A program made the translations under genes and the position numbers. Positions 2,501-7,444 of a DNA stretch of 64,000 bases are shown here, piece after piece. This DNA comes from Nocardioides marmorisolisilvae (GTDB taxonomy: Bacteria > Actinomycetota > Actinomycetes > Propionibacteriales > Nocardioidaceae): assembly GCF_003725775.1 (NCBI RefSeq), contig NZ_RJSG01000002.1, positions 1,963,871 to 2,027,870 on the forward strand, read 5' to 3'. Within the stretch, counting starts at the first letter, position 1. Every line of letters starts with the position of its first letter. The notes below the pieces were generated by a model. That model was not told the origin of the DNA. It was given only the letters and a program-made list of their open reading frames with translations, and searched no databases.

Positions 2501-4177
2501 TCAGGCGTTCGCGACGCGCCCCTCGTCGAGTCGCACCACTGCGCCGGCCCCGTCGGCGACCGCCCGGTGGGTGACCATCAGCACCGCCCGGCTGCCGTCG
2601 AGCAGGCTGGCCAGCAGGCGCGACTCGGTGTCGGCGTCGAGCGCGCTGGTGGCCTCGTCCAGGATCAGCAGCTCCGGCTCACGGGCGAGCGCCCGGGCGA
2701 TGGCGAGACGCTGCTGCTCGCCGCCGGAGAGCTCCGCGACCTCGTGCAACGGCGCCTGCAGTCCCCCGGGCAGTGCCCGGACGACGTCGTCGAGGCAGGC
2801 CGCGGTCAGCGCGGCCCAGGCGGCCTCCTCGGTCAGGGAGCGGCCGGGCTGGAGCGACCACGCCAGGTTCTGCCAGACCGTCCCGGGGACGAGCACGGTC
2901 GCCTGCGGCACGTACCCGACCCGGCTGCGCCAGTGGGCCAGGTCCGCGACCGGGACCCCGTCGACGAGCATCGCGCCGGACTGCGGCTGGAGCAGGCCGA
3001 GGATCAGGTCGAGGAGCGTGCTCTTGCCGGCGCCGCTCGCGCCGACCAGGGTCAGCACCCCGTTCCTGGGCAGCGTCAGGGAGACACCGTCGAGCGCCGG
3101 GGCCGCCTCCGCGTCGTACCGGAAGCCGACCGAGCGCAGCTCGACCAGGGCCGCCCCTGGAACCGGCGCCGCGCTGTTGGCGACAGCGGTCACGGTCTCG
3201 GGGTGGGCACGAGCCTCGGACCGCAGCGAGACCAGGGCCTCGACGGCCGGTACGTCGTTGGCGAACTGCTGCGCCGAGACGAGCACGCCCTGCCCGTTGG
3301 TGAGCAGGCGCATCGCGACCACGATCAGGGTGACCAGCTCGGCGGTCGAGAGCCCGATGTGCCGGCCGAGCAGGATCAGCCCGAGCACGGCGGCGACGGC
3401 GACCACCCCCATGCCGGCGCTCACCATCGAGGAGCGGGCCACGTAGCTGCGGCGGACGTCGCGGACCCGGCCCGCCTCTCCCCCGACGATGTCGAGCCAG
3501 GCGGCCTCGGCGCCGTGCGCGCGCATCACCCGGACCGAGGCGAGCGAGTCCGAGAGCGCTGCTCCGAAACCGGCCAGCCGCTCGCTCATCTCCTGCCCGA
3601 GCGAGGTCGCGCCCCGCGTCGACCGGGCCGAGCCCAGCAGCACCGCCAGCACGACCGCGGCGGCGATGCCGCCGACCAGCGGGGCGATCAGGACGCCGAC
3701 CGCGGCGGTCGCCAGCAGCATCACCACCCCGACGAACAGACGGATCACCATCGCGATCGCGACCTGGGCGCGCTCCACGTTCGTGGTCAGGCTCTGCACC
3801 AGCTCGCTGCGCCGCAGCCCGGCGAGGAAGGACCAGTCAGCGCCGTAGAGGTCGTCGATCAGCCCGAGGCGCAGGCGGTCCAGCGTGAGCAGCCGGATCT
3901 CGGTAGCGAGGACGGCGGCGTACCACTGGGCGATGCCGCGCAGGACGAAGACGGCGAACACGAGGCCGAAGGCCTGGCCGAGACTCAGGTGGAAGTCGAA
4001 CGCCGGGACCGAGAACCGGTGGCCGCCGTCGAGCGCCTGCATCACCGGGACCAGCAGCACCAGGCCCGCGCCCTCGAGGACGGCGACGAGGAGCTGGAGC
4101 ACGATCAGACCGGCGACCCTCCCGGCACCGACCGTGCTGGCCATCAGGCCGAAGCAGGTGCGCGCGCGTCCGATCAC
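2501..4177 (-). CDS. ABC exporter (membrane domain fused to ATPase) of the RiPP locus
   Basis: A half-size ABC exporter of 558 aa: about six membrane helices in the first 300 residues, followed by an ATPase with Walker A GASGAGKST (near residue 378), signature LSGGEQQ and Walker B LLILDEATSALD. Family knowledge: this architecture exports mature peptides in lasso and microcin loci (LarD/McjD-like). The GTG start at 4177 overlaps the stop of the upstream nucleotidyltransferase by 4 bases (GTGA), so the two are translationally coupled. There is no N-terminal C39 peptidase domain, which agrees with a separate B2 leader peptidase across the divergent promoter. The substrate is inferred to be the processed 5573 peptide. 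Confidence 0.88.
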   Translation of the reverse strand: MIGRARTCFGLMASTVGAGRVAGLIVLQLLVAVLEGAGLVLLVPVMQALDGGHRFSVPAFDFHLSLGQAFGLVFAVFVLRGIAQWYAAVLATEIRLLTLDRLRLGLIDDLYGADWSFLAGLRRSELVQSLTTNVERAQVAIAMVIRLFVGVVMLLATAAVGVLIAPLVGGIAAAVVLAVLLGSARSTRGATSLGQEMSERLAGFGAALSDSLASVRVMRAHGAEAAWLDIVGGEAGRVRDVRRSYVARSSMVSAGMGVVAVAAVLGLILLGRHIGLSTAELVTLIVVAMRLLTNGQGVLVSAQQFANDVPAVEALVSLRSEARAHPETVTAVANSAAPVPGAALVELRSVGFRYDAEAAPALDGVSLTLPRNGVLTLVGASGAGKSTLLDLILGLLQPQSGAMLVDGVPVADLAHWRSRVGYVPQATVLVPGTVWQNLAWSLQPGRSLTEEAAWAALTAACLDDVVRALPGGLQAPLHEVAELSGGEQQRLAIARALAREPELLILDEATSALDADTESRLLASLLDGSRAVLMVTHRAVADGAGAVVRLDEGRVANA

Positions 4178-5400
4178 CGGTGCGTCCTGATCACGGGCTC
4201 GACGACCCGGGCACCAGGCTCGCGACGGGCCCAGGCCACGCTCCGCCGGCGAAGCCGACGGACCCGGTGCCACAGGGTCAGCGGTACGCCGGTCCACGCG
4301 CTCTGCGCCTCGATGCCGACCACGGTCTTCACGGGGAGGACCGTCGCGACGACCGCGTGCCGTCGGTCTTGCCCGGTCGAGCTCGCGGCCAGCATGTAGC
4401 GCAGCGCACGCATGCTCTCGACGCCCGGGAACGGGTACGTCGCATAGACCGGCCGCTCCTGCGCGGCCAGCGCGCGCGTGAGCACGGAGGCCGGGACCCG
4501 GTCGAGCTCGGCGAGCACCTCGGCCGGGACGTTCGCCGGCAGTCCGACCACGAACCGGGTCACCGCCAGGGTCTGGACCTCGAGCCGGCGCAGCGGGTCC
4601 TGGTCGAAGGCTCGCTCCCAGGTGCGCGCGTCCGCGGCGATGCGGTGCACGTCGACCAGGCTGCGCAACCAGCGCCAGTAGTCCTTGGCCGCATGCAGGC
4701 TGGTGCTGCCGAGCAGATCGGCGTGGCAGAGGGTGTCCACCCGGACTGCGCCGAGGTCGACGGCCTCGCGCCGGTTCCAGACCTCCTCGAAGTCGGGCAG
4801 CGCATGCAGCGTCGGGTCCAGCCTCCAGTGCAGGTCGACCGTGCTTCCCGGCCCGTCGAAGGTGAACGCGTTGAAGGACCGCATCACGTGGCCCCAGGCC
4901 CAGGTGCCCGGACTGACCTCGGAGCCCAGACGCATCCGCCAGCCGTTCTCCTCCAGCACCCGGCAGGCGGCCTCGACGTCGACCGGGCTGATCACCAGGT
5001 CCAGGTCGCCCGAGCCGCGGGAGGACGGGTCCCCGGTCGTCTGGGCGGCCAGCGCCGGGCCCTTGATCGCCAGGCTGCGCAGACCTGCCGCCCCGAACGC
5101 GCTGTGCAGCCGCTCGAGCTCGAGCAGCTGCACCATCAGCCCGCGACGGCCGACGGCCCGCAGCTCGGCGATCCCGGACGCGACGTCCGGGTCCAGGCCG
5201 AGGGCGTCGACGTGGGCGTCGAGGAGCTCCGCGACCCGGTGCCGGCGTACGGCCTCGACCAGCTCGACAGCCGGTTCCCCGGGCGCTCCCGGAGTCGGGA
5301 CCTGAGCCGGTTCCGGTGCCCACTCCTGCCCCGCCTCCAGGCGCAGGGAACCCCGCACCCACGAGCGGACGCGCCGCACTGCGGCCGGGGAGGGATGCAC
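4174..5400 (-). CDS. Nucleotidyltransferase-family protein of the RiPP locus
   Basis: A 408-aa member of the nucleotidyltransferase family often found next to lasso-type B1/B2 genes (PF14907-like). Visible features are KGPALA followed by a Pol-beta-like active-site segment RGSGDLDLVI (D-x-D metal ligands, near residues 130-137), then CHADLLGSTSLHAAKDYWRWL and LVDVHRI. It starts with GTG at 5400, the first codon after the divergent intergenic region. Its role in RiPP pathways is not established; transfer of a nucleotide or sugar to the peptide, or to a self-protection target, is possible. It is co-transcribed with the exporter and divergent from the precursor operon. Confidence 0.75.
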   Translation of the reverse strand: MHPSPAAVRRVRSWVRGSLRLEAGQEWAPEPAQVPTPGAPGEPAVELVEAVRRHRVAELLDAHVDALGLDPDVASGIAELRAVGRRGLMVQLLELERLHSAFGAAGLRSLAIKGPALAAQTTGDPSSRGSGDLDLVISPVDVEAACRVLEENGWRMRLGSEVSPGTWAWGHVMRSFNAFTFDGPGSTVDLHWRLDPTLHALPDFEEVWNRREAVDLGAVRVDTLCHADLLGSTSLHAAKDYWRWLRSLVDVHRIAADARTWERAFDQDPLRRLEVQTLAVTRFVVGLPANVPAEVLAELDRVPASVLTRALAAQERPVYATYPFPGVESMRALRYMLAASSTGQDRRHAVVATVLPVKTVVGIEAQSAWTGVPLTLWHRVRRLRRRSVAWARREPGARVVEPVIRTHR

Positions 5401-5451
5401 CCGGCAAGCCTAGGAGCAGGAAGGGTCCCAAGGGGTGCGTAACCGGACAAG

Positions 5452-5480
5452 TTGTGGCCTGTCTAGTCCAAAAGGACTAT
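5452..5480 (+). promoter_or_regulatory. Possible sigma-70-type promoter of the precursor operon
   Basis: TTGTGG at 5452-5457 and GACTAT at 5475-5480 are separated by 17 bp, about 90 bp upstream of the precursor start. The match to consensus is moderate (3 of 6 at the -10), and the region is AT-rich compared with its surroundings. The inverted repeat at 5464-5479 lies on the spacer and -10. Confidence 0.3.
5464..5479. promoter_or_regulatory. 16-bp perfect palindrome, likely operator, in the divergent RiPP promoter
   Basis: TAGTCC-AAAA-GGACTA is a perfect inverted repeat in the 172-bp gap between the divergent nucleotidyltransferase and precursor genes. It overlaps the predicted spacer and -10 of the precursor promoter, the position expected for a repressor site. 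No regulator gene lies in the locus, so the cognate protein is unknown. Confidence 0.45.
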
Positions 5481-5572
5481 CTTTTCGAAGTTCACGCAGC
5501 CGATCCGTACCTTTCGTGTGCCGCGATCGTTCAGCACGATTGAGAAGGCAACAACCGACAGGAGCTCCAACG

Positions 5573-5692
5573 ATGACCGGTGCTGACAAGGCGTACAGCG
5601 CTCCGAAGCTGGAGTCGCTCAGCCTGCGGGCCACCAGCGACATCACGATCGGCGGATCGATCACCATCCCGTTCCCGCCGCTCGGTAGCTGA
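5573..5692 (+). CDS. Lasso-type RiPP precursor peptide (39 aa), cyclisation residue missing
   Basis: A 39-aa peptide with a clear lasso leader: Y8-x-x-P11-x-L13, the B1/RRE recognition motif, and Thr21 at the expected distance for the penultimate leader residue. The predicted core after Ser22 is DITIGGSITIPFPPLGS. It has no Asp or Glu at positions 7-9, so a canonical macrolactam cannot form. It ends in serine, the residue phosphorylated in paeninodin-type peptides by HPr-kinase-like enzymes, and such a gene is two genes downstream. AGGAG lies 8 bases before the ATG. It is followed by the B2 peptidase gene. A different cleavage site (after Thr25-Ile26) would also give a core without an acidic residue. 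Confidence 0.85.
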   Translation: MTGADKAYSAPKLESLSLRATSDITIGGSITIPFPPLGS

Positions 5693-5742
5693 CGGCTCTC
5701 GCCACTCAACCGACGTCTCCGGACGTCACGAGGCCACGTTCC

Positions 5743-6210
5743 ATGCGACTCGTTCACACGGTGCGGGGTTTTGTCCGTTTAGGACTCAAGGACCAGGTCC
5801 GCTTCACGGCGGCCTGGTCCTTGCTCGGTTTCTCGAGGCTTTTGATCATCGTGCTGCCGTTCACGGTGATCCGCCGCCTCCTCGGTGAGAACCGCGCGAG
5901 CGACCAGGAGCGCCCGCCGCCCGCGCTGGACGCCGGCCAGCGGATCCGCGCGATGCACATCGGCCGCGTGGTCGAGCTCGCCGCCGCCTACGCCCCCTGG
6001 CGCTCGGACTGCTACCCGCAGGCGCTCACCGCGCGCATGTTCCTGGCACTCCGACGGATCCCGCACGAGGTCGTCTTCGGGGTTCGCCGTGACGGAGACG
6101 CGCTGATCGCCCATGCTTGGGTCCGTGCAGGAGACGTCGAGGTCACCGGGGGCAGTGGTCGTGAGTACACGGAGGTCGGCTGGTTCTCCTGGTCGCCGGA
6201 CGGAGCCTGA
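5743..6210 (+). CDS. Lasso-type B2 leader peptidase (transglutaminase-like fold)
   Basis: A 155-aa split B2 protein of the lasso B family, expected to cleave the leader from the precursor once the B1 partner has bound it. The papain/transglutaminase-type catalytic Cys is C90 in WRSDCYPQALTAR and the His is H124 in LIAHAWV, followed by an acidic residue (D131 or E133). All are present, so the enzyme looks intact. The N-terminal 45 residues are hydrophobic and basic, as in many B2 proteins. It starts 50 bp after the precursor stop and precedes the kinase gene by 18 bp, in one apparent operon. Confidence 0.9.
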   Translation: MRLVHTVRGFVRLGLKDQVRFTAAWSLLGFSRLLIIVLPFTVIRRLLGENRASDQERPPPALDAGQRIRAMHIGRVVELAAAYAPWRSDCYPQALTARMFLALRRIPHEVVFGVRRDGDALIAHAWVRAGDVEVTGGSGREYTEVGWFSWSPDGA

Positions 6211-6228
6211 GCGCCGGGTGAGCCCGGA

Positions 6229-7140
6229 GTGAACGCAGCTCTGACCCGGTACACCTGCTACGGGCTGGTCCTGGCCAGCGAGATCGAGCTCCCCGACCTG
6301 GGTGAGCCGCTGGCAGGAGAACCTGATCCCGACGTCGTCGTCCGCTTCGACCGCCTCGCCGGCCCCCCGGCCGGCGCCGACCCGCTCCCCTACGGGCTGT
6401 GGCGCGAGGGCACCTCAGCGGGCGTCGAGATCCCGGACGTCGGCCGCTACGAGGCGCGTGACGGTCGCGAGGTCGTCATCGACCCCGTCGACGGTGCGGA
6501 CCCGAAGGCGATCCGGCTGTTCCTGCTCGGGAGCCTGCTCGGGGCGGTGATGATGCAGCGCGACCACCTGGTGCTGCACGGCAACGCGTTCCGGATCGGC
6601 GATGCGTGCGCTGTCGTGGTCGGGCACTCCGGGGCCGGCAAGTCCACGCTCGCCGCCGAGCTCGACCGGCGCGGGTACGACGTGCTCTCCGACGACGTGG
6701 TCCCGGTGGATCCGGACGGGATGGCGATCCCGGGCCACCCCCGGATCAAGCTGTGGGGCGACGCGCTCGAGCGGCTCGGGGTCGGCACCGAGGGCCTGGA
6801 ACGGATCAACGACGACCACGAGAAGTTCCAGCTGGCGCTGCGTCGCACCGAGGTGGAGCCGTTGCCGCTGCGCTGGGTCTACGTCCTCGAGCGCCACGCG
6901 GGCACGGAGCTCAGCATCGAGCCGGTCCACGGGGCGACCACGTTCAGCCTGCTGCACGAGCACACCTACCGCAACGAGCTGGTCCACGGACCGGGTCCGA
7001 TGGCCCAGCACCTCCAGCAGTGCGCCAGGCTGGTGTCGGTGGCCCGGGTGAGCCGGGTACGACGACCTGTCGAAACCATGACCGCAGAAGCCACCGCAGA
7101 TGCCATCCTTGCCGACATCAACACCGTCCCGGCCCCGTGA
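6229..7140 (+). CDS. HPr-kinase-like peptide kinase of the RiPP locus
   Basis: A 303-aa homologue of the C-terminal catalytic domain of HPr kinase/phosphorylase. The P-loop is GHSGAGKST (132-140), and a Walker-B-like LSDDVVPVD follows at 153-161. HGNAF with H117 sits where the HPrK fold begins. In paeninodin-type lasso loci such kinases phosphorylate the C-terminal Ser of the precursor; here the precursor also ends in Ser. The GTG start at 6229 is preceded by a purine-rich GGGTGAG. The bacterial HPr function is unlikely because no PTS gene is near. The 3' end encodes RPVET, a faint echo of the dispersed 19-bp repeat seen elsewhere. Confidence 0.85.
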   Translation: MNAALTRYTCYGLVLASEIELPDLGEPLAGEPDPDVVVRFDRLAGPPAGADPLPYGLWREGTSAGVEIPDVGRYEARDGREVVIDPVDGADPKAIRLFLLGSLLGAVMMQRDHLVLHGNAFRIGDACAVVVGHSGAGKSTLAAELDRRGYDVLSDDVVPVDPDGMAIPGHPRIKLWGDALERLGVGTEGLERINDDHEKFQLALRRTEVEPLPLRWVYVLERHAGTELSIEPVHGATTFSLLHEHTYRNELVHGPGPMAQHLQQCARLVSVARVSRVRRPVETMTAEATADAILADINTVPAP

Positions 7141-7159
7141 AGAAGCCCGAGGAGTTTGC

Positions 7160-7444
7160 ATGACCAGCAGCCGTCCCGACGCCAGCTACATCCGGCGCCC
7201 CACGCTGCACGCCGTCGAGATGGACGGCGAACTGGTGATGATGGGTCAGGAGCAGGGCGAGTACTACGGCCTGCGTGACGTGGCCGCCTCGATCTGGAAC
7301 CACCTGGCCGAGCCGCGCACCGTCGAGGACCTGGTCGTGCTGGTCTGCGAGGAGTGGAACGTGACCCCCGAGGTCTGCCGCCCCGACATCGTCGAGTTCC
7401 TCGACGACCTGCTGCTGCGCAAGCTGGCCGAAGAGGTCTCCTAG
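7160..7444 (+). CDS. PqqD-family / B1 RiPP recognition protein
   Basis: A 94-aa PqqD-like RRE protein that should bind the YxxPxL leader and present it to the B2 peptidase and kinase. The usual beta-strand segment (LHAVEMDGELVMM), the short QGEYYGLRDVAASIW segment and the three-helix part (TVEDLVVLV...DIVEFLDDLLLRKLAEE) are all visible. GGAG lies 6 bases upstream of the ATG. The gene ends the operon; its TAG stop lies within CTAG, shared with the stop of the convergent gabT gene, so no terminator separates the two. Confidence 0.88.
   Translation: MTSSRPDASYIRRPTLHAVEMDGELVMMGQEQGEYYGLRDVAASIWNHLAEPRTVEDLVVLVCEEWNVTPEVCRPDIVEFLDDLLLRKLAEEVS

Follow-up and report, generated by a model that had tools for sequence, protein, structure and literature searches.

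A lasso-type locus without a recognisable cyclase in Nocardioides, and the probably linear, phosphorylated peptide that it would produce

Several described systems resemble the locus studied here. The Linear Polyphosphorylated Peptides (LPPs) of Bacillota, published in May 2026 with the lpp cluster of Paenibacillus alginolyticus, are the linear counterparts of phosphorylated lasso peptides; their cluster has an SpI-like protease, a phosphate has been demonstrated on Ser3, and LPPs and paeninodins are stated to be restricted to Bacillota (PMC13381572). For paeninodin- and pseudomycoidin-type tailoring, the kinases PadeK, ThcoK, SyanK and PsmK target the C-terminal serine, and PsmN adds a hexose (PMC9266682). 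The bsf cluster of Bradymonas sediminis combines a precursor (A), B1, B2, a kinase, a nucleotidyltransferase and an exporter with the cyclase BsfC, and its B1 assists both the kinase and the B2 peptidase (PMC10368454). Here, a locus of Nocardioides marmorisolisilvae is described that contains a comparable set of genes and no cyclase gene. It occupies positions 2501-7444 of a 64,000-nucleotide stretch, hereafter the window. The reading that we consider probable is that of a paeninodin-like pathway for C-terminally phosphorylated lasso peptides, from which the cyclase was lost once in the family and which has been retained for making linear peptides.

The six genes of the locus form two outward-facing sets. 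The minus strand encodes an ABC exporter of the permease-ATPase type (2501..4174; PF00005 ABC_tran 112.5 bits, PF00664 30.8), predicted to export the product, and a nucleotidyltransferase (4174..5400; PF14907 118.9 bits), predicted to attach a group to phosphoserine. The plus strand encodes the precursor peptide, the transglutaminase-like leader peptidase B2 (5743..6210; NF033537 lasso_biosyn_B2 86.4 bits, cut-off 33), an HprK-like precursor kinase (6229..7140) and B1 (7160..7444; PF05402 PqqD 62.5 bits, cut-off 23.4), a PqqD-like recognition element (RRE) for ribosomally synthesised and post-translationally modified peptides (RiPPs). A carbohydrate phosphorylase gene (PF00343, 88.7 bits) flanks the locus on the left and a class-III aminotransferase gene (PF00202, 398.6 bits) on the right, which we take to be glgP and gabT; no cyclase gene was found between these flanks or otherwise in or beside the locus. 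The initial annotation, made from the letters of the DNA, had described this gene set, its unrelated neighbours and the missing cyclase, and the profile matches bear it out, for the kinase through a match below the cut-off together with its residues. The contig that holds the window is 2.34 Mb long, its genome is listed as 99.99% complete, and the same six-gene order recurs in eight other genomes of the genus, which rules out chance or an edge effect. Searches with PHROGs and for tRNA and Rfam families (gathering threshold) gave no matches.

It is clear that the cyclase-less system is maintained. Within the genus, B2 is present in 10 of 24 genomes, the window's own included, and eight of the nine other carriers have the identical six genes in identical order without a cyclase; the ninth (genome G013, locus L020) is rearranged. 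Across the family, taken as Nocardioidaceae, 31 of 341 genomes, belonging to 3 of 26 genera, contain a match to the kinase profile (expectation value, E, up to 1e-30). None of the 31 loci has a match to the asparagine-synthase family PF00733 nearby, so that the related cyclase-less loci for which the initial annotation had proposed a search do exist. The exporter stands in the same position, adjacent to the other genes, in 12 of the 31 (the window, L012-L019, L132, L133 and L146; hereafter exporter-type loci). In a sample of the order the kinase matches 18 of 391 genomes (E up to 1e-20), 17 of them Nocardioidaceae and one from another family at 128 bits; in a sample of the class, 78 of 394 genomes match, three above 350 bits, all of Nocardioidaceae, and the other 75 at less than 90 bits. 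When named genomes were scanned by pattern, 34 loci came up, 19 from Nocardioidaceae and 15 from Proteobacteria, and the carriers include Nocardioides marmoriginsengisoli, N. daejeonensis, N. daeguensis and Pimelobacter simplex. The ratio of non-synonymous to synonymous substitution rates (dN/dS) between the window and the eight genus loci, by a crude method, is 0.23-0.77 for B2, kinase, B1 and nucleotidyltransferase.

The window precursor (5573-5692, plus strand) has 39 residues and starts with an ATG downstream of an AGGAG ribosome-binding site (5560..5564, plus strand); GGAG is found at most 20 bases before the start in 30/30 family precursors. Its leader, MTGADKAYSAPKLESLSLRATS (5573..5638), contains YxxPxL and Thr at -2, and its core, DITIGGSITIPFPPLGS, extends with the stop codon over 5639..5692. 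Precursors were searched for in the roughly 1.5 kb preceding the kinase, as a Y/W/F-x-x-P motif with an ATG upstream of it; neither the Thr nor a C-terminal Ser was required. This gave 30 precursors in 31 loci, with none called in L020 and that of L133, which has a GTG start, found by eye. Given that the search demanded Y/W/F-x-x-P, the YxxP motif of the set is partly built in. A Thr 13 residues past the motif Tyr, corresponding to -2, and a Ser as last residue, the predicted phosphorylation site, are each present in 30 of 30 precursors. This Ser is the sole Ser in 26 of the 30 cores and the sole Ser/Thr in 16. The cores begin with Asp (23), Gly (6) or Glu (1), and none of the 30 contains Lys, Arg, Cys or Tyr. 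Polar and hydrophobic residues alternate in 0.931 of neighbouring steps of the 25 distinct cores, scored without the last three core residues, versus 0.533 in shuffled cores, with 0 of 5000 shuffles as high; the values are 0.915 versus 0.530 for 17 collapsed cores, and the window core alternates more weakly (0.769).

The initial annotation had regarded the loss of the cyclase and the loss of Asp/Glu at core positions 7-9 as agreeing with each other. The YxxPxL leader, the Thr at -2 and the absence of Asp/Glu at positions 7-9 of the window core are all confirmed in the sequence, and the cyclase is absent at all 31 loci. The acidic residue is likewise absent from 10 of 12 exporter-type cores (present in 2/12), but from only 1 of the 18 exporter-less cores; 17/18 of these have Asp/Glu there, as part of a D-I-D-I run, which makes the loss a trait of the window's exporter-type subtype. 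Of the initial proposal, what stands is a maintained cyclase-less locus that reuses B1 and B2, with a kinase and a probably linear product; the Asp/Glu loss is not general. The possibility that homologues would always carry a cyclase and precursors with Asp/Glu is not borne out, as the family loci have no cyclase; Asp/Glu occurs in 19/30 cores.

The kinase is called HprK-like because of a PF07475 match of 27.0 bits, under the cut-off of 33.3, together with conserved catalytic residues: His117, Lys138, Ser139, Asp155 and Asp156 are invariant in alignments of 10 and of 31 rows and correspond to the His-Lys-Asp-Asp motif described in lasso kinases (PMC9266682). These residues and the C-terminal Ser, the putative substrate, occur together as in paeninodin-like tailoring. 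B2 has kept Cys90 and His124 in 31/31 loci, and their setting is that seen in relatives with a cyclase. The window B1 scores 62.3 bits with the lasso B1 model NF033536, under its cut-off of 80, and its relatives in the PDB are PbaB1 (39.3 bits), TbiB1 (35.8), LppB (25.0) and TfuB1 (22.2). In the nucleotidyltransferase, G131, D132 and D134 (GDxD) and D189 are invariant in 31/31. Its structural model (mean predicted local distance difference test, pLDDT, 86.2) has one PDB match with E <0.001, chain B of a MenAT1 complex, and weaker fold matches to LnuA, ANT(2'')-Ia and FKRP, the latter listed in complex with cytidine diphosphate (CDP)-ribitol.

In the pathway that these proteins would form, B1 is expected from its family to bind the YxxPxL leader. 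The kinase would phosphorylate, and possibly polyphosphorylate, the invariant C-terminal Ser, as residue conservation and characterised homologues suggest, and the PF14907 enzyme may then cap the phosphate with a nucleotide, a sugar or a similar group, in line with its fold and with pseudomycoidin. B2 together with B1 would cut one residue past the Thr, which would thus come to stand at -2, and the exporter, where present, would secrete the peptide. From the absence of a recognisable cyclase we infer linear peptides, phosphorylated at the terminal Ser and probably capped there.

With paeninodin and pseudomycoidin the locus shares the HprK-like kinase, the nucleotidyltransferase (in pseudomycoidin) and, by prediction, the C-terminal Ser target and a precursor processed by B1 and B2; those systems have a cyclase and a lasso ring, whereas the cyclase is absent here (PMC9266682). 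The bsf cluster has the same components and differs in the presence of BsfC, in a kinase that targets Ser3 and in a leader with Ile at -2 (PMC10368454). Compared with lasso peptides in general, the window has the YxxPxL leader with Thr(-2), B1 and B2, but neither the cyclase nor the Asp/Glu at 7-9.

Several observations weigh against a retained pathway for linear, C-terminally phosphorylated peptides. The kinases, that of the window included, score under the curated cut-offs. Given that LppK and BsfK phosphorylate Ser3 and not the last Ser (PMC13381572, PMC10368454), the C-terminal site is not to be taken for granted, and the window core is itself exceptional in having also Ser7 and two Thr. 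Several carrier genomes are draft or metagenome assemblies, one of them just 75% complete, the short precursor gives noisy dN/dS values (0.12-0.94, seven pairs), and one locus of the 31, L020, is rearranged and yielded no precursor. An adjacent exporter is lacking at 18 loci and also at L020. Asp/Glu at positions 7-9 makes a macrolactam formed by another enzyme chemically possible in the 19 cores that have it. Finally, six of the 31 carriers have some PF00733 match (G000, G013, G020, G087, G622 and G660), of which that in G622 is the cyclase of a separate lasso-type locus, and the window's own genome (G000) has one orphan Asn_synthase-like gene for a protein of 617 residues (PF00733 28.6 bits; G000:C4:1019941-1021791; L021, L036).

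The acidic residues and the orphan gene would be accounted for if the product were a lasso or other macrolactam, closed by an unrelated enzyme or by a cyclase whose gene lies elsewhere. This is considered unlikely, given that PF00733 has no match anywhere in 25 of the 31 carrier genomes (E up to 0.001), that the matches in the remaining six are separated from the locus by at least 90 kb or sit on a different contig, and that the window core has no Asp/Glu at positions 7-9. The lasso-cyclase model NF033535 matches in two of the 31 genomes (G013 and G622), on other contigs and under its cut-off in both; the match in G013 scores strongly with the general asparagine-synthase family (PF00733 272.6 bits), and ordinary asparagine synthases are picked up by the model too, in 9 of 14 control genomes and never above cut-off. 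These genome-wide searches with both models led to the rejection of a cyclase overlooked through poor annotation. Our own Asn_synthase profile, built from eight genus hits, is insensitive, having missed a cyclase (L153) that PF00733 found, and its negatives are not used as proof. Across the 23 other genomes of the genus, the orphan gene of the window's genome finds one match of 58 residues (G003) and none of full length, and no B1, B2, kinase or nucleotidyltransferase matches to our own profiles occur in the 19 kb around it. For lack of a full-length match in the genus it was rejected as a general cyclase acting in trans, while for this strain such a role is possible. The cyclase elsewhere in the genome that had been named as a challenge to the annotation is thus without support in most carriers and survives as one weak candidate in this genome. 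The separate locus in G622 (contig C76, L153) contains a cyclase, a kinase, an exporter and a candidate precursor with a W-type leader that ends in Ser.

It is also quite unlikely that the peptide is a scaffold or carrier, to be discarded or anchored once a small molecule or glycan has been attached to its C-terminal phosphoserine. The weak fold matches of the PF14907 enzyme to nucleotidyltransferases and to FKRP with CDP-ribitol are compatible with this, as are the 18 of 31 loci without adjacent exporter. Nonetheless, just the MenAT1 match falls below E 0.001, and no extra conserved biosynthetic gene is seen in window-type loci by crude gene calls. The exporter-less loci (L134-L145 and L147-L152) have one gene cluster on each side common to 18/18, presumably a MshA-like glycosyltransferase and a TypA-like GTPase as judged by eye, and seven of the 18 have weaker ABC matches (at most 83 bits) more than 3 kb away. 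An open reading frame resembling an aspartate/glutamate racemase, recognised by eye, directly follows B1 in 12 of the 18.

A third possibility, that the locus belongs to the LPP family of Bacillota itself and arrived by transfer, would explain why it has the same functional set, namely a discrete RRE, an HprK-like kinase, a nucleoside triphosphate (NTP) transferase and an MsbA-like exporter without a macrolactam cyclase (PMC13381572). The two also have in common a lasso-like [Y/W]xxP leader and, probably here, a linear intermediate. This likeness is limited by the adjacent exporter being present in only 12/31 loci, and membership in the LPP family is made very unlikely by the differences. The LPP system has an SpI-like protease, a Ser3 target and a stated restriction to Bacillota (PMC13381572), whereas here B2 takes the place of the protease, the C-terminal Ser is invariant and the hosts are Actinomycetota. 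No SpI-like peptidase is found among the six locus proteins, and of the six TIGR02228 matches in the window's genome the nearest is about 138 kb away. The window leader, YSAPKLESLSLRATS, does not conform to the LPP consensus YxxPxVLxHQxIxFETxxS. B1 and kinase appear to group with lasso proteins; in the B1 tree, which has few columns and a single LPP row, the family joins lasso B1s and PbaB1 at 90/91, and the window B1 scores PbaB1 above LppB.

As for the origin of the pathway proposed here, the 31 family kinases form one clade with 100/99 support (bootstrap not settled), and the nearest sampled kinases are proteobacterial. An Asn_synthase-like gene lies near 12 of the 15 loci of these relatives by our own profile; four of the genes were tested and give 95-114 bits with PF00733, with NF033535 as best NCBIfam match at 190.7-312.2 bits, under its cut-off of 525. 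Candidate precursors with a C-terminal Ser and, by our own reading, Asp/Glu at about positions 8-10 are present in five of the 15 (L054, L057, L059, L062 and L065); in L056 the candidate ends in Ser and its Thr(-2) is not clear, and in the remaining nine no convincing candidate was seen. In the B1 tree the cyclase-less rows group at 97/90, again on few columns (L055, identical to L141, is counted in the family). Since one kinase clade stands beside proteobacterial kinases that are mostly near cyclase-like genes, one loss of the cyclase in the Nocardioidaceae clade would be the simplest explanation; transfer out of Proteobacteria may also have occurred, a reading that depends on a midpoint root. 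That the locus is a lasso cluster decaying after a recent loss, as the one gene missing relative to most proteobacterial relatives might suggest, is the least credible explanation given its 31 carrier genomes, catalytic residues invariant in 31/31, enzyme dN/dS below 1 and a Thr and C-terminal Ser kept in every precursor.

The distinct RiPP class proposed in the initial annotation is largely anticipated by the LPPs, which differ mainly in their leader peptidase (PMC13381572). In the open-licence literature, judged on titles and the openings of abstracts, that paper is the sole close precedent for lasso loci of Nocardioides or actinobacteria that lack a cyclase. What is described here is an actinobacterial version, apparently independent of the LPPs, that uses B2 and has a core alternating between acidic and hydrophobic residues; it differs from the LPPs in peptidase, leader consensus and phylum and probably also in phosphorylation site and origin. 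More tentatively, and with less than even confidence, it could represent a second class of linear RiPPs derived from lasso pathways, one that evolved independently and has so far been seen in a single actinobacterial family, in which the only conserved modification of an alternating Asp/Gly-Ile/Leu strand would be the phosphate of the terminal Ser linked to a nucleotide, sugar or alditol. The alternating strand suggests metal binding or beta-sheet assembly, which may take place at the cell surface or, in the exporter-less lineage, inside the cell. If the pathway is as proposed, lasso machinery has shed its defining enzyme at least twice, in the Bacillota LPPs and in this clade, keeping kinase and nucleotidyltransferase both times; this would suggest that the phosphate-linked residue, and not the knot, is the selected feature. 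Because B2 is retained, the clade is suited to the study of the kinase and PF14907 roles without the complication of a ring. Such loci would presumably escape genome mining whose rules demand a cyclase.

In the rearranged locus of G013 (L020 / L052), the family kinase and B1 face a divergent second kinase and a divergent B2. It also has a sulfotransferase-like open reading frame, recognised by eye, and an open reading frame ending in YAAPHLIRLDARATLSLPTPAADDIYVS beside B1 that may be its precursor. The kinase relative from another family of the order (128 bits; G863, L183) has a B1-like gene adjacent, and B2 or a cyclase was not seen there by our own profiles. Upstream of the window precursor, an inverted repeat TAGTCCAAAAGGACTA occupies positions 5464-5479; it was not seen in relatives and was for this reason dropped as a meaningful element. 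The 170 bases ahead of the precursor start contain GGTAAA or GGTTAAA in 18/18 exporter-less and 0/12 exporter-type loci; this is possibly a promoter element of the former.

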